NCBI GenBank assembly: GCA_947589105.1
Contig: CANQBL010000010.1
Location: forward strand, 1 to 32,063
Origin: an uncultured Bacilli bacterium
GTDB taxonomy: Bacteria; Bacillota_I; Bacilli_A; RF39; UBA660
DNA: 32,063 nt
Direction: 5' to 3'
Part shown: one piece after another, positions 4,990 to 12,956 of the stretch
How positions within the stretch are numbered: position 1 is the first letter of the stretch
Layout: each line of letters opens with the position of its first letter
Translations under genes and position numbers: made by a program
The notes under the pieces: generated by a model
What the model saw: the letters and a program-made list of their open reading frames with translations, nothing else
What the model was told of the DNA's origin: nothing
Database searches by the model: none

Positions 4990-5020
4990 TAACATAAAAG
5001 ACGTTAAAATTAACGTCTTT
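4990..5020 (-). terminator. Hairpin after the 113-aa gene
   Basis: Perfect 11-bp arms AAAGACGTTAA (4997-5007) and TTAACGTCTTT (5010-5020) overlap the stop codon. The T-tract after the stem on the minus strand is short and broken by A and G, so termination may be partial. That would let transcription reach the pseudouridine synthase downstream. Confidence 0.6.
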
Positions 5021-5360
5021 ATATTCTATTTCTTCTTTTTATTTGTTCTTTATCTATTTTTGTATCAATTTTATCAGAATCAACAAACCCAGGTTGAGTT
5101 TGATCAATATAGACTAAAGGAAGATGTGCAACTAAAGTTTTATCTATTTCATAAACTTCTTTTGGTTGTTTTTGCTCATCAGTATCTGAGAATATGCGCC
5201 CTACTAAAGCTTTATTTACACTACCAATATAAACCTTTTTTTTAATAATTGGTTTATCAGAAACTGGTGGTATACGTCCTACCAACGATTTATCAATATA
5301 ATAAAAAGTCTTTTCTTCACGTCTTCTTCTTTTTTGTCTTATTATATCTTTATAATTCAT
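5019..5360 (-). CDS. Unrecognised 113-aa protein with three copies of a short motif
   Basis: I do not recognise a family. The N-terminus is strongly basic (a run of five R/K around residues 10-14) and the C-terminus is again charged (KRRNRI). Between them a nine-residue motif occurs three times: IDKSLVGRI (22-30), VNKALVGRI (48-56) and IDKTLVAHL (72-80). The copies are 24-26 residues apart, linked by Pro/Lys/Asp/Gln-rich stretches that look disordered. There is no signal peptide or membrane segment. It is real by context: a good promoter (5394-5422), a GAGGGGG ribosome-binding site and a hairpin right after the stop. The repeated motif could be a partner-binding short linear motif, which is inference only. 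Confidence 0.75.
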   Translation of the reverse strand: MNYKDIIRQKRRRREEKTFYYIDKSLVGRIPPVSDKPIIKKKVYIGSVNKALVGRIFSDTDEQKQPKEVYEIDKTLVAHLPLVYIDQTQPGFVDSDKIDTKIDKEQIKRRNRI

Positions 5361-5393: not shown

Positions 5394-5422
5394 ATTATAA
5401 CACAAATACAAATTTTATGCAA
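5394..5422 (-). promoter_or_regulatory. Promoter of the 113-aa repeat-motif gene
   Basis: TTGCAT (-35, 5422-5417), 17 nt, then a perfect TATAAT (5399-5394) preceded by TGT. The -35 sits directly below the rubrerythrin terminator. Confidence 0.65.
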
Positions 5423-5443
5423 CTAAAAAGACCAATTGGCCTT
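5423..5443 (-). terminator. Intrinsic terminator of rubrerythrin
   Basis: A six-pair stem (AAGGCC with GGTCTT, one G-U pair) with loop AATT, overlapping the stop codon and followed by TTTTT on the minus strand. Confidence 0.65.
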
Positions 5444-5981
5444 AATAATTTTTTGATTTTTGTTCAAAATAGCTTTGTGGATGAGCACATACTGGACATA
5501 CTTTTGGAGCTTGCGTACCAACATAAACATAACCACAATTACGGCAAATCCATACCGTTTCATTACCTTTTTTGAACACTAAATCATCATTTACGTTACC
5601 TAATAACTTCATGTATCTTTCTTCGTGTTCCTTTTCAATCTTAGCTACTTCCTCAAAAAGGTAAGCTATATGGTCAAACCCTTCTTCTTTTGCTTCTTTA
5701 GCGAAGGTTTTATACATTTCAGTCCATTCTCCATTTTCACCAGCTGCAGCTGATTTTAAATTTTCTTTTGTTGAAGAAACTTCTCCTCCATTTAATAATT
5801 TAAACCAAATTTTAGCATGTTCCTTTTCATTGTTTGCGGTTTCTTCAAATATTGCTGCAATTTGTTCATATCCTTCTTTTTTTGCTTTACTAGCAAAATA
5901 AGTATACTTATTTCTTGCCTGACTTTCTCCTGCAAAAGCAGTCATTAAATTTTCTTCTGTTTTTGATCCTTTTAATTCCAT
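5442..5981 (-). CDS. rbr: Rubrerythrin
   Basis: This 179-aa protein is a complete rubrerythrin. The N-terminal ferritin-like four-helix bundle holds the di-iron ligands in two E-K-E-H elements (residues 52-55 and 116-119), with Glu19 and Glu82 in the partner helices. The C-terminal rubredoxin domain holds Cys146, Cys149, Cys162 and Cys165 as two C-x-x-C pairs. It reduces hydrogen peroxide to water with electrons from NADH or reduced rubredoxin/ferredoxin and is a standard peroxide defence of anaerobes. It acts in the cytoplasm. The start has AAGGAGAGG upstream. It is monocistronic, and its upstream region has two promoters and a strong palindrome, so expression is probably regulated. Confidence 0.95.
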
Positions 5982-6024
5982 AATTAAACTTCCTCTCCTT
6001 CAAACTTTAAAAATTAAATTTATA

Positions 6025-6049
6025 TTAAAATTACAACGTGTAATTTTAA
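6025..6049 (-). promoter_or_regulatory. 25-bp palindromic operator candidate over rubrerythrin promoter P2
   Basis: Perfect 11-bp arms, TTAAAATTACA and TGTAATTTTAA, are separated by ACG. The palindrome covers the -10 (6043-6048) and predicted start point of the proximal promoter, which is the position of a classical repressor operator. The core TTACA-N3-TGTAA does not match the PerR, Fur or Rex consensus closely enough to name the regulator. Confidence 0.6.
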
Positions 6050-6071
6050 AACTAATCTTTTAATATATCAA
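6043..6071 (-). promoter_or_regulatory. Rubrerythrin proximal promoter (P2)
   Basis: TTGATA (-35, 6071-6066), 17 nt, TAAAAT (-10, 6048-6043). Each hexamer is one base from consensus. The leader would be about 50 nt. Confidence 0.55.
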
Positions 6072-6101
6072 TTTTTATATAATACATTAATACATTTTAG
6101 A

Positions 6102-6116
6102 TAGTAAAGATTACTA
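6102..6116. repeat. 15-bp palindrome at the start point of promoter P1
   Basis: Arms TAGTAA and TTACTA with spacer AGA. They lie just downstream of the P1 -10, across the predicted transcription start near 6114. It may be a second operator, but its short AT-rich arms could arise by chance. Confidence 0.35.
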
Positions 6117-6120
6117 CTTG

Positions 6121-6149
6121 AGTATATTTAAAATACTTATAATTGTCAA
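6121..6149 (-). promoter_or_regulatory. Rubrerythrin distal promoter (P1)
   Basis: Perfect TTGACA (-35, 6149-6144), 17 nt, TATACT (-10, 6126-6121). It starts two bases below the stop codon of the upstream permease gene and gives a leader of about 130 nt. Confidence 0.65.
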
Positions 6150-6151
6150 TA

Positions 6152-7270
6152 CTATTTAATTCTTTTCCTTTTTAATCTATCGTTTACATACTCTTTTAAT
6201 AAACTATATAAAATAGATGCTATTGGAATACTTATTATCATACCAATAAAGCCAAATATACTTCCTCCTATAAGAACCGCAATAAGAGCCCATAAAGCAG
6301 GTAAACCAACAGAGCCTCCAACAATTCTAGGATAAGTAAAATTATCATCAAATTGCTGCAAAGCAAAGAATATAATTACGTACCAAATAACTCCGATTGG
6401 ATTGGTAACTCCTATTAAAACACACCCAACTAGTAAAGTAATAAAAGCTCCTACGTATGGTATAAGTGCTGTTATGGCAAATAATACCCCTAGAATTAAA
6501 GCATATGGTAATTTTATTATGCTAAGTATTATAAAAAGTATAAATCCAATTAAACTAGCATCTAAGCACTGACCAGTTAAAAAGTTAGTAAAAGTAGTAT
6601 TAGCTAGTTTAATTATACCTATGGTATTATTAGTTATTTCTTCATTAAAGAAAGCACTTAGTAACTTTTTAGTTTGCCTTGCTAAGTTCTCTTTATCAAG
6701 TAATATGTAAATTGAAATAATAAAACCTATAAAGAATATTATTATTCTAGATATCATAGCACCTAAAAACGTAGCTACCATAGATACGATACTTCCAGCT
6801 TGATTTATTGATGAATCAACTATTTTTTTAATATCAATTCCTTTTAAATATTCTTTAACATCTGGATAAGCTATGTTTATTTTGTTTATTATATTATTTA
6901 TAAAATCATAACTTTTTGGGATATTTTTGCTTATGTTAACAATTGCTTCAATAAATTCTGGAATAACTAAAAACATAATTAATCCTATTATTCCAAAAAT
7001 TAAAACAAGTGATATAACAAGTGAAATAACCCTTATTAATTTTTTATGTTTTCTTTTTGCTATTTTAAATATTTTTCTTTCAATTTGCTTCATTGGCACA
7101 TTTATTATAAAAGCTATTGCTATACCTACAATTAAAGGCATTAATAATTTAATTATAAATCCGATTAATTGAATAAATAAATGATAGTTAAAAACAACCC
7201 ATAACATAATTGCCGAAAAAGAAATTAAAAACATTATTTGCTTTATATTTTTCTTATTTAAATTCATCAT
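6152..7270 (-). CDS. AI-2E-family (PerM/YdiK-like) membrane permease
   Basis: This 372-aa protein has about eight membrane segments and the family's layout: three hydrophobic segments near the N-terminus, a soluble helical region around residues 105-165, then paired segments ending in the conserved G-Q-C-L-D-x-x-x-I-G, A-L-I-P-Y-V-G-A and G-x-x-V-G-L-P-A-L-W motifs. Family members are varied exporters or antiporters; the AI-2 export role of the name-giving member does not transfer to all, so the substrate is unknown. The start has AAAGGATG upstream and follows corA by 25 nt, so the two are probably cotranscribed. No clear terminator follows it before the rubrerythrin promoter. Confidence 0.85.
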   Translation of the reverse strand: MMNLNKKNIKQIMFLISFSAIMLWVVFNYHLFIQLIGFIIKLLMPLIVGIAIAFIINVPMKQIERKIFKIAKRKHKKLIRVISLVISLVLIFGIIGLIMFLVIPEFIEAIVNISKNIPKSYDFINNIINKINIAYPDVKEYLKGIDIKKIVDSSINQAGSIVSMVATFLGAMISRIIIFFIGFIISIYILLDKENLARQTKKLLSAFFNEEITNNTIGIIKLANTTFTNFLTGQCLDASLIGFILFIILSIIKLPYALILGVLFAITALIPYVGAFITLLVGCVLIGVTNPIGVIWYVIIFFALQQFDDNFTYPRIVGGSVGLPALWALIAVLIGGSIFGFIGMIISIPIASILYSLLKEYVNDRLKRKRIK

Positions 7271-8336: not shown

Positions 8337-8365
8337 GAAAAAAGGATAGTATTTTTTACTATCCT
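8334..8365 (-). terminator. Intrinsic terminator of the MarR/ABC exporter operon
   Basis: Nine-bp arms AGGATAGTA and TACTATCCT (8365-8357 and 8351-8343) with a five-base A loop, then a T-rich tract on the minus strand. It overlaps the stop codon of the last exporter gene. Confidence 0.8.
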
Positions 8366-10736
8366 AATTCTTAAACTGTGAATTATAAAGTTCTGCGTAA
8401 AATCCGTTTTGCTTCATTAATTCCTCATGATTACCTTGTTCTATTATGTTACCTTCATTCATAACAAGGATTTTATCAGCGTTTTTTATGGTGGATAACC
8501 TGTGTGCAATAATAAATGAAGTTCTACCCTTAGTCAATTTATCCATTGCTTTTTGAACTAATTCTTCCGTTCTTGTATCAACACTCGAGGTTGCCTCATC
8601 CAAAATAAGAAATGGTGCATCTTTTATCATTCCACGGGCAATGGTTAATAACTGCTTTTGCCCCGCTGACACAGAATCATTATCTCTTACTGCATAATCT
8701 AAAGCTCCTGGCAAAGACTTTACAAAGTGATCTACCCCAACGGTTTTTAATGCCTCCATAATTTTTTTATCACTAACGTTTTTATTGTTATAGCGAACGT
8801 TATCTCTAATTGTTCCATCAAATAACCAAGTATCTTGAAGTACCATGATGAATAAATCATGAATGTTTTTTCTAGTTAATTCTTTGGTAGAAACACCATC
8901 AATTAGTATTTCCCCATCTTTTATGTTGTAAAATTTCATAAGCAAGTTAACCATCGTTGTTTTACCTGCTCCTGTTGGACCTACTATCGCAACTTTTTCT
9001 CCTGGTTTTACTTTACAGTTAAAATCCTTAATAATTATCTTATCATCGTTATATCCAAACTTAACGTGATTAAACTCTATGTTACCCTTAACCTTTTTTG
9101 GATTAAGTTTCTTAGTTAAGTTAGACTCATCTTCCATTTCAGGTTCTTCAACGAATTCAAATACCCTTTCAGCAGCAGCCGCCGTTGACTGAATACTAGT
9201 CATTCCTTGAGCTATTTGAGAAAGAGGAGATGTAAATAATCTTACGTATATCATAAACGCAACGATAACACCAAAAGTAATATGATTATTAATTACAAGC
9301 GTTGCACCAACAACGCATACCATAACGTAACCAAAGTTTCCAATGAAATTCATCATTGTTGGCATAAGACCAGACAAAAACTGACTCATACGATTACATT
9401 CAAATACGTTATCATTTAATTCATCAAAAGTCTTTGAAGCGTCATAGTTCCCATCGTATGCCTTAACCACGTTGTGATTAGTATAAATTTCTTCAATGTG
9501 ACCATTTAATTTTCCTAACTCAACTTGCCTTGCTAAAAAGTACTTTTGAGATTTTTTAAGTACCACACCCATAAAAATAAATCCAAATAATGATGAGATA
9601 ATTGCAGTTATGGCCATAATCCAGTTTGTTACAAACATCATTATAACGCAACCTATAAATAATGCTATAGCTCCTACTAATGAACCTAAACTTTGCGATA
9701 AGTTAAATCCTATCGTATCAACGTCGTTAGTAACCCTAGATAATATATCCCCTATCAAGTGAGTATCAAAATACCTTAAAGGTAGTTTATTTATTTTTAT
9801 TGATATTTTAGTTCTTAACTCCTTAGCAAACTTATTAGACATAATTGCCATTAAAAAACTTTGGAAGAAATTAAACAAAGCACTCGCTAAGTATATCGTA
9901 ATTAAAAACGTAACGATCTTTTTTATTGCCTTAACATCTAGTTTTGGTTTAACTATGTTTTTTATGTTTTTAGGTAATTTATCCATTTTTTTATATAAGG
10001 AGTTAACGCTTGTTTTTTTACTTACGTTACCCATGATACTTAAGAACTTTACTTTTTGATTAGTAGTTAATAAAGTACCTTTTATTTTACTATCCGGAAG
10101 TAAAATCTTTTTTATTGAGCTAGGCATTTTAGACAATTGTTTAATCATCAATTTTTGATTAGTTAAATTAGTATTACTAACCATATTAATAAATGATATT
10201 TTATCAGAAGAAGATACTAAAACATTATCTATCATACTACTTGGTAATATAACGTTTGTAATGCTATTAGGTAACTTTACTACCTCTTTTAAAAGTTCTT
10301 CTTTAAGATAACTACTAACGTTTTTTAAAAAAGCATTAAATATTAACTTATCTTCACTAGAAATATCATCCGAATTATTAATCATTATTATAGTTTCGTT
10401 ATCTAACTTAATGTTCATTATATCTGAACTTATATCCTTAAAATTTTTTTCGTTTAAAGTACTAGTAATATCACTTGTTATATTAATTAAGTTTTCTTTA
10501 TCCACTACAAGACCCTTAGATAACTCATCCGTTAAATCACTAAGTTTATTAGGCCCTATTATCGAAAGTACGCTTGATAAAGCTGCTAAGAAAAGAGCTA
10601 TCACTAAAATTGGTATAAATGGTTTTAAATACTTAAACAGCTTCTTTAAAGTAAGCGATAAGTTCTTAGGTTTTTCAAAGTTTCTTCCATGAACTCTTCC
10701 TCTTGGAGCCATCGTCTTTTGTTTTTTGTTATTCAT
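8364..10736 (-). CDS. ABC exporter subunit (TMD-NBD) with repeat-containing extracytoplasmic insertion
   Basis: This 790-aa half-transporter has six membrane helices and a C-terminal ATPase: Walker A G-P-T-G-A-G-K-T-T (586-594), signature V-S-A-G-Q (689-693), Walker B L-I-L-D-E (catalytic Glu present) and the H-loop A-H-R-L-S-T. It is about 200 residues longer than usual because an insertion (about residues 62-283) between helices 1 and 2 faces outside. That insertion repeats about every 50 residues with L-P-x-S-I-K-N and I-L-L-P-x-S-x-I motifs. The start ATG at 10736 has AAGGAG 7 nt upstream and overlaps the partner gene by 8 nt. With the upstream subunit it should form a heterodimeric exporter; the cargo is unknown. 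Confidence 0.9.
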   Translation of the reverse strand: MNNKKQKTMAPRGRVHGRNFEKPKNLSLTLKKLFKYLKPFIPILVIALFLAALSSVLSIIGPNKLSDLTDELSKGLVVDKENLINITSDITSTLNEKNFKDISSDIMNIKLDNETIIMINNSDDISSEDKLIFNAFLKNVSSYLKEELLKEVVKLPNSITNVILPSSMIDNVLVSSSDKISFINMVSNTNLTNQKLMIKQLSKMPSSIKKILLPDSKIKGTLLTTNQKVKFLSIMGNVSKKTSVNSLYKKMDKLPKNIKNIVKPKLDVKAIKKIVTFLITIYLASALFNFFQSFLMAIMSNKFAKELRTKISIKINKLPLRYFDTHLIGDILSRVTNDVDTIGFNLSQSLGSLVGAIALFIGCVIMMFVTNWIMAITAIISSLFGFIFMGVVLKKSQKYFLARQVELGKLNGHIEEIYTNHNVVKAYDGNYDASKTFDELNDNVFECNRMSQFLSGLMPTMMNFIGNFGYVMVCVVGATLVINNHITFGVIVAFMIYVRLFTSPLSQIAQGMTSIQSTAAAAERVFEFVEEPEMEDESNLTKKLNPKKVKGNIEFNHVKFGYNDDKIIIKDFNCKVKPGEKVAIVGPTGAGKTTMVNLLMKFYNIKDGEILIDGVSTKELTRKNIHDLFIMVLQDTWLFDGTIRDNVRYNNKNVSDKKIMEALKTVGVDHFVKSLPGALDYAVRDNDSVSAGQKQLLTIARGMIKDAPFLILDEATSSVDTRTEELVQKAMDKLTKGRTSFIIAHRLSTIKNADKILVMNEGNIIEQGNHEELMKQNGFYAELYNSQFKN

Positions 10737-12480
10737 TTTCAAGCTCCTTTCTTGATAATTGAGATAATGCTATTTCTTTATAAACCTTGCATTTTTTAAG
10801 TAAGTCTTTATGACTTCCTATTCCAACTACCTTTCCTTTATCTAATACCACTATGTTATCAGCGTTAATGATGGTACCTACCCTTTGGGCAACAATTATA
10901 CTTGTTGCTTCTTTTAAGTTTTTCTTTAACTCTTTTCTAAGTTCATAATCAGTTTTATAATCTAACGCGCTAAATGAATCATCAAAGACAAATATTTCTG
11001 GATTTTTAGCAATTGCTCTTGCAATTGCGATTCTTTGCTTTTGTCCTCCTGATATATTAGTACCACCTGCTGCAACGTTAGATTCATACTTATTTGGCAT
11101 CTTTAAAATAAAATCATTTGCTTGAGCAATTACTGCAGCATCAGTTATCTCTTTTTTAGAAACTTTATTTTTACCATAACCTATGTTATAGTTAACGGAA
11201 CCATCAAACATAACGGCACGCTGAGGAATATATCCTAATTTTTCGTGCAAAGCCTCTAGCTTATAATCCTTTACGTTTACCCCATCAATTAATATTTCAC
11301 CTTCGGTTACATCATAAAATCTCATTATTAAGTTTACAATCGTTGATTTACCACTACCAGTTGAACCAATTATGGCTAACGTATCTCCTTTTTTAGCCTT
11401 AAACGAAATGTTTTTAAGAACGTATTCATTAGCGTCTGGATACTTAAATGACACGTTTTTAAATTCTATTTCTCCATAAGTTTTGGTATCACCTAGAAAA
11501 TTTCCATCTTTTATTGTCTCATCTACATTTAATACCTCTGTAATACGACTAGCTGAAACACTTGCTCTAGGATACATAATAAATATCATAGCAAGCATCA
11601 AAAACGACATTAAAACTTGCATCGCGTAGCTAGAAAAAACAACCATGTTACTAAATATTGTTAATCTATCAAACATACCTGCACCATTAATTAATGACAT
11701 ACCAATAACGTAGATACTAAGGGTTAAGAAATTCATTATTAAATACATCGAAGGTGACATAACAGACATAACTTTTTGGTTAAAAGTTTGGGTTTTAGTT
11801 AAGTCGTTATTTACCCCTTCAAACTTATTTTCCTGATATTTTTCAGAGTTAAACGCTCTTATTACCCTAATACCATTTAAGTTTTCACGAGTAACACCAT
11901 TTATTCTATCAATTAATTTTTGAACTATTTTAAACCTTGGTAAGACCGTAACCATAAGAATTACTATTATGATAAGTAAAATAACAACCGCGATAAGGGT
12001 TGCTAAACTCCATTGCCATCCCTTACCAAATATCTTAAAAATAGCCCATACGGCCGTAATGGGTGCTTTAATTAGCATTTGAAGTCCCATTGCAATAAAC
12101 ATCTGAATGTTCGTTATATCATTGGTTGTTCTAGTTATTAAACTGCTGGTTCTAAAGTATTTCATTCTTTCCATACTAAAGCTTTGTACCTTTTCAAATA
12201 GTGTTTTTCTAGTTCTTTTAGAAAAAGTAGCTGAAACATAAGAAACTAAGTACCCAACTAAAAACGCTGATAATAAAGAACCTAAAGCACAAGAAAGCAT
12301 GTAAGCGCCTTGTTTTAACACCTCACTTATTTTAGTACCTTCCGTTTGTACTAATCTTGTTATTTCAGACATATAATCAGGTAGTTTTAAATCAAGCCAA
12401 ACCTGAAATAATATTAACAAAACACAAATAAAAATCATAATAAAGTCTTTTTTTCTAAATTCCTTTATTAACCTTAACAT
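10729..12480 (-). CDS. ABC exporter subunit with degenerate ATP site
   Basis: This 583-aa subunit has six membrane helices and an ATPase with Walker A G-S-T-G-S-G-K-S-T (372-380) and a canonical signature I-S-G-G-Q (476-480). Its Walker B ends V-F-D-D (498-501), with Asp in place of the catalytic Glu, and the H-loop His is Gln (V-A-Q-R-V, 532). Its partner has the reverse pattern, so the pair should have one degenerate and one active ATP site, as known for heterodimeric exporters of the BmrCD/TM287-288 type. These export drugs, peptides or lipids. I chose the ATG at 12480 because AAGGTGG stands 9 nt before it; the ATG at 12489 abuts that site too closely. It is preceded by a MarR gene. Confidence 0.9.
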   Translation of the reverse strand: MLRLIKEFRKKDFIMIFICVLLILFQVWLDLKLPDYMSEITRLVQTEGTKISEVLKQGAYMLSCALGSLLSAFLVGYLVSYVSATFSKRTRKTLFEKVQSFSMERMKYFRTSSLITRTTNDITNIQMFIAMGLQMLIKAPITAVWAIFKIFGKGWQWSLATLIAVVILLIIIVILMVTVLPRFKIVQKLIDRINGVTRENLNGIRVIRAFNSEKYQENKFEGVNNDLTKTQTFNQKVMSVMSPSMYLIMNFLTLSIYVIGMSLINGAGMFDRLTIFSNMVVFSSYAMQVLMSFLMLAMIFIMYPRASVSASRITEVLNVDETIKDGNFLGDTKTYGEIEFKNVSFKYPDANEYVLKNISFKAKKGDTLAIIGSTGSGKSTIVNLIMRFYDVTEGEILIDGVNVKDYKLEALHEKLGYIPQRAVMFDGSVNYNIGYGKNKVSKKEITDAAVIAQANDFILKMPNKYESNVAAGGTNISGGQKQRIAIARAIAKNPEIFVFDDSFSALDYKTDYELRKELKKNLKEATSIIVAQRVGTIINADNIVVLDKGKVVGIGSHKDLLKKCKVYKEIALSQLSRKELENE

Positions 12481-12494
12481 AAATATCATCCACC

Positions 12495-12917
12495 TTATTT
12501 TAAATTTTCTTCTAACTTATCAATTATTTTAAACAAATAATCAGTTTCCTCTTTGGTAATGCCCCTTAAAAGATCATCCTCAAAATTCGCTATTTTTTGT
12601 GCTATCTCTTTATGTTTATTCAAACTATAATCAGTTAATGCAACCTGTTTTTTTCTTGAGTCGTTTTTACAGGCAACTCTTTTTATTAAGTTATTTTTTT
12701 CCATCGTATTTAAAATACCAGATATCGTAGAACGTCTTACTGATACTTCTTTTTCGATGCTACTTTGATAGATTACTTTATCTTTATTATCACATAAGTA
12801 CTTTAATATTCTAACTTGAGTATTCGTTAGCTTAAGTTTATCTATGCCTTTAAAGATTTTTCTTTCTATCATGTTATCTAACTTTTTAATTTCAAACGCT
12901 ATTTTTCTTTCTTTCAT
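12495..12917 (-). CDS. MarR-family transcriptional regulator
   Basis: This 140-aa protein has the MarR winged-helix core: L-T-N-T-Q-V-R-I-L-K-Y-L, the helix-turn-helix I-E-K-E-V-S-V-R-R-S-T-I-S-G-I-L-N-T-M-E-K, then the wing N-L-I-K-R-V-A-C-K-N-D-S-R-K-K-Q-V with the conserved D-S-R-K. Long flanking helices serve dimerisation. It probably represses the exporter operon that follows after 14 nt, and its own gene, because a 20-bp palindrome overlaps the operon promoter. The ligand is unknown, though MarR/ABC pairs often answer the compound they export. The ATG at 12917 has AAGGTG upstream; TTG and GTG codons slightly upstream are poorer starts. Confidence 0.9.
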   Translation of the reverse strand: MKERKIAFEIKKLDNMIERKIFKGIDKLKLTNTQVRILKYLCDNKDKVIYQSSIEKEVSVRRSTISGILNTMEKNNLIKRVACKNDSRKKQVALTDYSLNKHKEIAQKIANFEDDLLRGITKEETDYLFKIIDKLEENLK

Positions 12918-12956
12918 AATTTTCACCTTCAAACCGCAAGGTAGCTAACAAAAATC

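Follow-up and report, generated by a model that had tools for sequence, protein, structure and literature searches.

Why does a perfect 25-bp palindrome stand between a rubrerythrin gene and its promoter? The gene, rbr (5442-5981, minus strand; 179 aa; PF02915 and PF21349, with NF045767 above its cut-off), lies in the window, i.e., the whole stretch of 32,063 nt of DNA that was analysed. The sequences that the first-pass annotation described upstream of it are all present: two promoter-like matches in tandem, P1 (TTGACA-17-TATACT, 6121-6149, minus strand, 11/12 positions) and P2 (TTGATA-17-TAAAAT, 6043-6071, minus strand, 10/12), an exact 11-3-11 palindrome (6025-6049), which is also part of a longer imperfect repeat, and a 6-3-6 palindrome, TAGTAA-N3-TTACTA, at the P1 start point (6102-6116). 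That annotation took the 25-bp palindrome for the operator of a redox regulator that it could not name. Our analysis leads elsewhere. The best explanation as a whole, to which we give a probability of about 0.6, is that the locus lost perR, kept a PerR box, and retains the constrained tail of perR, which would act as an mRNA hairpin.

The genus sample comprises the 18 genomes found, including that of the window (G000; 1.04 Mb in 30 contigs, 92.5% complete). Rubrerythrin gives a full match in 17 of them, whose upstream regions were compared, and a weak match in G001. The Fur-family domain PF01475 exceeds its cut-off in 11 genomes, once in each, and nowhere in the other seven (G000, G001, G008, G011, G012, G015, and G017), among which the bins G011 and G012 are 73% and 67% complete. 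A PerR gene may conceivably lie elsewhere in G000, given the completeness of its assembly. In G001, whose bin is 94% complete and which has neither PF01475 nor a good rbr match, the whole operon seems to be lost. Matches to PF01475 below the threshold occur in G000, G008, G015, and G017. The one in G000 is a MarR-family regulator of the window (12495-12932), which scores weakly with the FUR model too; it is immediately followed by the genes of two ABC exporter half-transporters (8364-12489), with frames overlapping by a few bases, and no result ties it to the 25-bp palindrome. On the other side of rbr, downstream, a 113-aa ORF (5019-5360) contains three imperfect repeats (IDKSLVGRIPP, VNKALVGRIFS, and IDKTLVAHLPL). 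It has no Pfam match and no counterpart among the ORFs of at least 80 aa in the rbr loci of ten perR-bearing relatives.

The comparison with the other species of the genus places the palindrome inside a gene. In 10 of the 11 perR-bearing congeners it sits within the last codons of perR. This gene, whose frame encodes a Fur-family protein of 126 to 128 aa, directly precedes rbr, and its stop codon lies 1 to 2 nt from the rbr ATG in the 10 cases examined. The protein ends in TGFKITx(C/S)NF(N/K)I followed by a CxxC pair, and the palindrome, read as the codons TTT AAA ATT AC(N) NNN (T/A)GT AAT TTT AA(T/A), encodes the stretch F-K-I-T-x-(C/S)-N-F-(N/K). Seven of these ten copies are exact, one has a single mismatch, and two have two. 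In the remaining perR-bearing genome, G009, the tail of PerR is divergent and the palindrome is lacking. The bin of G009 is 67% complete and carries two rbr copies (L017 and L062): one, cut by a contig end, follows a perR gene with a perfect box and that divergent tail, and the other lacks perR and is immediately preceded by a 16-2-16 inverted repeat. The alignments thus identify the palindrome as the 3' end of perR, with no sign of a regulon. Allowing up to two mismatches, the 25-mer occurs once in G000; it is single copy in 12 of the 18 genomes and missing from six. Our literature searches found no paper that describes this element, nor one describing an intragenic or synonymous element in perR and rubrerythrin. 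BlaI/CopY-type operators have the form TACA-N2-3-TGTA. Sites of this type, and those of Rex, FNR/CRP, CcpA, and MarR/OhrR, were considered and then set aside once the coding origin had been seen.

In the family sample, the association was seen in this genus only. We searched 386 genomes of the family, drawn evenly and including five of the genus, and matches with at most one mismatch were found in eight. Arms without any mismatch occur only in this genus, in three of its five genomes. For the five other matches (L210-L214), the 3 kb read contains no rbr and no perR, and in other genera that have the perR-rbr pair with the same promoter box (L018, L019, L021, and L155) the palindrome is not at the perR end. 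These results led us to reject a family-wide element. At L155, one of these loci, a different stem could form 108 nt upstream of rbr, with 10 pairs if G-U is allowed.

How did the end of a gene come to lie in front of rbr in G000? In the phylogeny of RpoB and RpoC, G000 is the sister of G013 (support 100/99), which keeps perR. A stretch of 63 nt upstream of rbr (5990-6052, minus strand) aligns without gaps to the perR gene of this sister, with 53 identical positions. The local score is 71, against a maximum of 42 in 1,000 shuffles. In the part made up of GTT, the palindrome, and the adjoining TATAAAT, 34 of 35 positions are identical; by this alignment, the palindrome is the clearest surviving piece of perR in G000. 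Since G013 is the sister and keeps the gene, perR was lost on the branch of G000 itself, unless G013 regained it. A single clade of perR-less species is disfavoured (AU test, p 0.022, with G012 represented by only 30% of the columns). The best tree needs three changes of perR state, two of which are forced by the starred branches. G012 is intermediate: it has kept the promoter, the box, and the first and last codons of perR, and its middle is gone. In the short leaders of G015, G011, G017, and G008, no perR coding sequence was recognised by eye, nor, for G017, by alignment. These are also the four of the six perR-less species with rbr in which the palindrome is absent, which makes the palindrome dispensable.

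The lost regulator can be named. The protein of G013 has as its best PDB match in phmmer 2fe3, the PerR of Bacillus subtilis (E 4e-23), and as its best NCBIfam match a PerR model (E 5e-28), where its 98 bits stay below the cut-off of 200. In the alignment with 2fe3 it has the residues aligned with the metal ligands of B. subtilis PerR (H37, D85, H91, H93, and D104), as well as the CxxC pairs. A perfect box, TAGTAATNATTACTA, precedes perR in all 11 perR-bearing genomes and is the only perfect copy of the genome in ten of them; none of the seven perR-less genomes has a perfect copy anywhere. The remaining genome, G014, has a second perfect box (L215:976-990), immediately upstream of a gene that encodes rubredoxin and glutamate synthase domains. 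The same box also precedes perR-rbr in three other genera and one named contig (the four loci mentioned above). With one mismatch allowed, matches to TAGTAATNATTACTA are no commoner than matches to its reversed control, so only perfect or well-placed boxes are meaningful.

The box of the window stands at the P1 start point. The 6-3-6 palindrome reads TAGTAATCTTTACTA on the minus strand, one mismatch from TAGTAATNATTACTA, and the mismatch lies near the centre. At the operon promoter, the box matches at 14 of 14 positions in the ten perR-bearing species aligned, and is also perfect in G009. The perR-less species score lower, with 13 positions in G000 and G012, 12 in G015, and 11 in both G011 and G017, where the best match of G017 is off the aligned position; no box was seen at the rbr promoter of G008, which is outside this table. 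The starred branches offer only two independent pairs for the decay of the box, too few for a sign test. All 15 genus promoters examined (a set that leaves out G008 and both G009 loci) have a P1-like sequence before the box, with 10 to 12 of 12 matches, and the box begins 4 nt after the -10 hexamer in 12 of them. P1 is therefore best described as the ancestral promoter of a perR-rbr operon, which now serves rbr alone. We infer that PerR binds the box, and that a dimer bound at this position would block initiation. As far as sequence can tell, the redox site is the 6-3-6 palindrome, not the 25-bp one. The peroxide or redox control that had been proposed for this locus is thus supported as ancestry, at the smaller palindrome instead of the larger one and with a regulator that can be named. 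Taken jointly, the origin of the 25-bp palindrome from perR and the identity of the PerR box seem to us very nearly certain.

These results suggest a sequence of events. In the ancestral state, perR stood between P1 and rbr, and the position and conservation of the box at the P1 start point suggest that it served PerR to repress the operon to which perR itself belonged. The alignment and the tree indicate that perR was deleted on the branch to G000 after the split from G013, again unless G013 regained it, and that the deletion left P1, a box that has started to decay, and the end of the perR coding sequence, now part of the leader of rbr. In the assembly of G000 no protein passes the Fur-family cut-off, so that transcription of rbr from P1 probably escapes PerR.

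The origin of the palindrome does not say whether it does anything. The codons of the perR-bearing species are informative in this respect. Over the palindrome, eight of the nine columns with conserved residues use a single codon in all ten species. We drew columns of the same residues (each shared by 7 or more of the 10 species) from the remainder of perR and from four other genes (that of an AI-2E transporter, rbr, rpoB, and rpoC); 1.3 to 1.5 invariant columns were expected, and eight were reached in none of 100,000 draws, with or without rpoB and rpoC. Since these draws take the columns singly, we also ranked windows of 11 codons, which is the more sober test. The window at the perR end ranks first of 2,890 in five genes (0.943 against 0.638 expected, z 4.1), and one rpoB window is nearly as frozen (0.891 against 0.607). 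The latter corresponds to the codons around EISPVENFSGT (loci among L189-L204). At the perR end, the two codons ahead of the stem vary; the freeze sets in with the stem's first codon and extends beyond the palindrome on its 3' side. The tail of perR in the sister species thus looks protected at the level of DNA or RNA, and a constraint on the nucleotides of this region is, in our judgment, quite probable. The statistics suggest that the nucleotides of the palindrome were already under constraint when it still belonged to a coding sequence.

The alternative that survives best is a neutral one. The palindrome could have arisen by chance from the codons for F-K-I-T-x-C-N-F-N, given the A+T-rich genome, and it could have persisted in G000 through the short time elapsed and the slow mutation of A/T positions. 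The four perR-less species that do without it fit this explanation, as does G009, which manages without it in the presence of perR. The comparison of G000 with G013 can be read in the same way: in 4 of the 10 differences a G has become A or T, and just two positions of the arms are G or C. None of the 22 arm positions of G000 has changed, compared with 9 of the 38 other positions of the remnant (p 0.011, with boundaries chosen post hoc); counting A/T positions only gives a p value of 0.057. This difference, a modest one, suggests that the arms were retained but falls short of proof. What a neutral remnant leaves unexplained are the synonymous codons shared by the perR-bearing species, i.e., the eight invariant columns out of nine where about 1.4 are expected and the first rank among 2,890 windows. 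We consider it unlikely, and a role of the perR end at the nucleotide level is likely in this genus.

What could this role be? The palindrome is a predicted RNA hairpin. For a stretch of 46 nt around the G000 copy, 198 of 200 shuffles fold less well (z -3.1), and the whole 148 nt, comprising the leader and the first 12 nt of rbr, do not stand out (z -1.3; 22 of 200 shuffles are as good). The five short stretches folded have predicted energies from -7.3 to -9.7 kcal/mol and z values of -3.1, -2.5, -1.8, -1.4, and -1.1; in the four relatives among them, the predicted stems have 10 to 12 pairs (z -1.1 to -2.5). The stem lies 66 to 72 nt before the rbr start, counted from its TAAAAT. The arms, over ten bases, are identical in all ten perR-bearing species, so there is no covariation for or against the fold. 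Positions 5400-6400 give no Rfam match up to an E value of 1. A hairpin alone would not demand the conservation seen on the 3' side of the palindrome, which counts against a reading by the hairpin only. Still, the single copy, the fixed place at the end of a regulator gene, and the predicted stem make an mRNA hairpin a better fit than an operator.

Known systems suggest what such a hairpin might do. CggR and GlnR are repressors. The G000 genome encodes RNase Y (TIGR03319, 729 bits, G000:C2:4821-6356). In B. subtilis, RNase Y cleaves the cggR and glnRA transcripts at the regulator gene, and the part encoding the enzyme is stabilised by a stem-loop that lies downstream (PMC11780869). As in cggR-gapA and glnR-glnA, the regulator gene comes first and the enzyme second, a stem-loop is predicted at the end of the regulator, and RNase Y is present. 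These precedents, and the presence of the nuclease, lead us to favour a stabilising hairpin. There are also differences: the stem is almost entirely made of A-U pairs, the hairpin is predicted from sequence, and in the window it has lost its host gene. By analogy, the hairpin would protect the rbr part of the transcript, and perhaps mark it by processing, which would allow the enzyme to be made in excess over the PerR regulator. This function falls somewhat short of an even chance in our estimate. More tentative still is the idea that selection kept the hairpin, or a site, in the rbr leader after the deletion of perR, such that a coding end became a leader element.

The nucleotide constraint could also reflect a bound protein. 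A dimeric repressor other than PerR could recognise the palindrome and control rbr, either through P2 or, in the relatives, as a roadblock within the operon. The near-perfect symmetry of the palindrome and the onset of the synonymous freeze at its left end would suit an operator, and so would its position over the P2 -10 and start point. The frozen stretch is, however, asymmetric, continuing 3' of the palindrome, and no genome among the 18 has more than one copy at up to two mismatches. The further copies at other promoters that a regulon would have were not found (one copy in 12 of 18 genomes, none in six). The palindrome is indeed absent from other promoters, and close relatives do have it, inside coding sequence. 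The core TTACA-N3-TGTAA occurs at five sites in G000, against two for its reversed control, and the four sites other than that of the palindrome are all inside long open frames.

P2 does not help this explanation. The region has 4 promoter-like sites, where shuffles give 2.3 +/- 1.6. The -10 of P2 derives from old perR codons, and its -35 matches at 5 of 6 positions in G000, a figure that falls to 1 to 2 of 6 in the 11 other sequences with the palindrome. Since the -35 is not conserved in these relatives and shuffles give about two such promoters, we treat P2 as probably fortuitous: as a working promoter, the role it had been given, it is peculiar to G000 among the 12 sequences compared and does not rise above chance. 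Another internal promoter was sought by eye at TATAAAT, and no -35 was found. We therefore regard an operator as improbable. An auxiliary intragenic PerR site, for which one could invoke the pentamers ATTAC and GTAAT common (by eye) to TAGTAATNATTACTA and to the ATTAC-N5-GTAAT of the palindrome, both in one operon, is very improbable, as the half-sites are everted, in the order opposite to that of a Fur-type box, such pentamers are likely to be common by composition, and G000, in which no PerR was found, has an intact palindrome.

The reconstructed operon, as opposed to its tail, has close parallels. For perR-rbr-rdl of Desulfovibrio vulgaris, Table 7 of PMC545781 gives a predicted PerR site, AtCAGTAATtGTTACTGgT, and the paper quotes the B. 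subtilis PerR consensus as TTATAATNATTATAA. The gene pair and its promoter box are alike in D. vulgaris and in the genus, whose box resembles AtCAGTAATtGTTACTGgT and differs from TTATAATNATTATAA. In Clostridioides difficile, the PerR-controlled rbr1 locus (rbr1-perR-rbo) includes a gene of the rubredoxin-glutamate synthase kind (PMC8546684), the type found behind the second box of G014. Unlike both of these loci, the window has no perR and a box with a mismatch. For its probable state there is a parallel in strain 630-delta-erm of C. difficile, where PerR function was lost by the substitution T41A (PMC8546684). Without a working PerR, constitutively high rbr would be expected in both cases. 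The difference is that the strain has a point mutation in PerR, whereas G000 has had the gene removed from its own operon.

The genus thus offers a natural experiment on the loss of a repressor, with 11 genomes that have perR and a perfect box and seven without either, two of them in bins about 70% complete. One of these seven has been caught with the middle of perR missing. The case also shows that an intergenic palindrome with the look of an operator can be what is left of a dead gene, which calls for caution when operators are called from symmetry alone. Finally, should the frozen codons prove to be a genuine mRNA element, perR-rbr would join cggR-gapA and glnR-glnA as a pair of repressor and enzyme whose proportions are set by processing, and the element would in this case be encoded inside the repressor gene itself.
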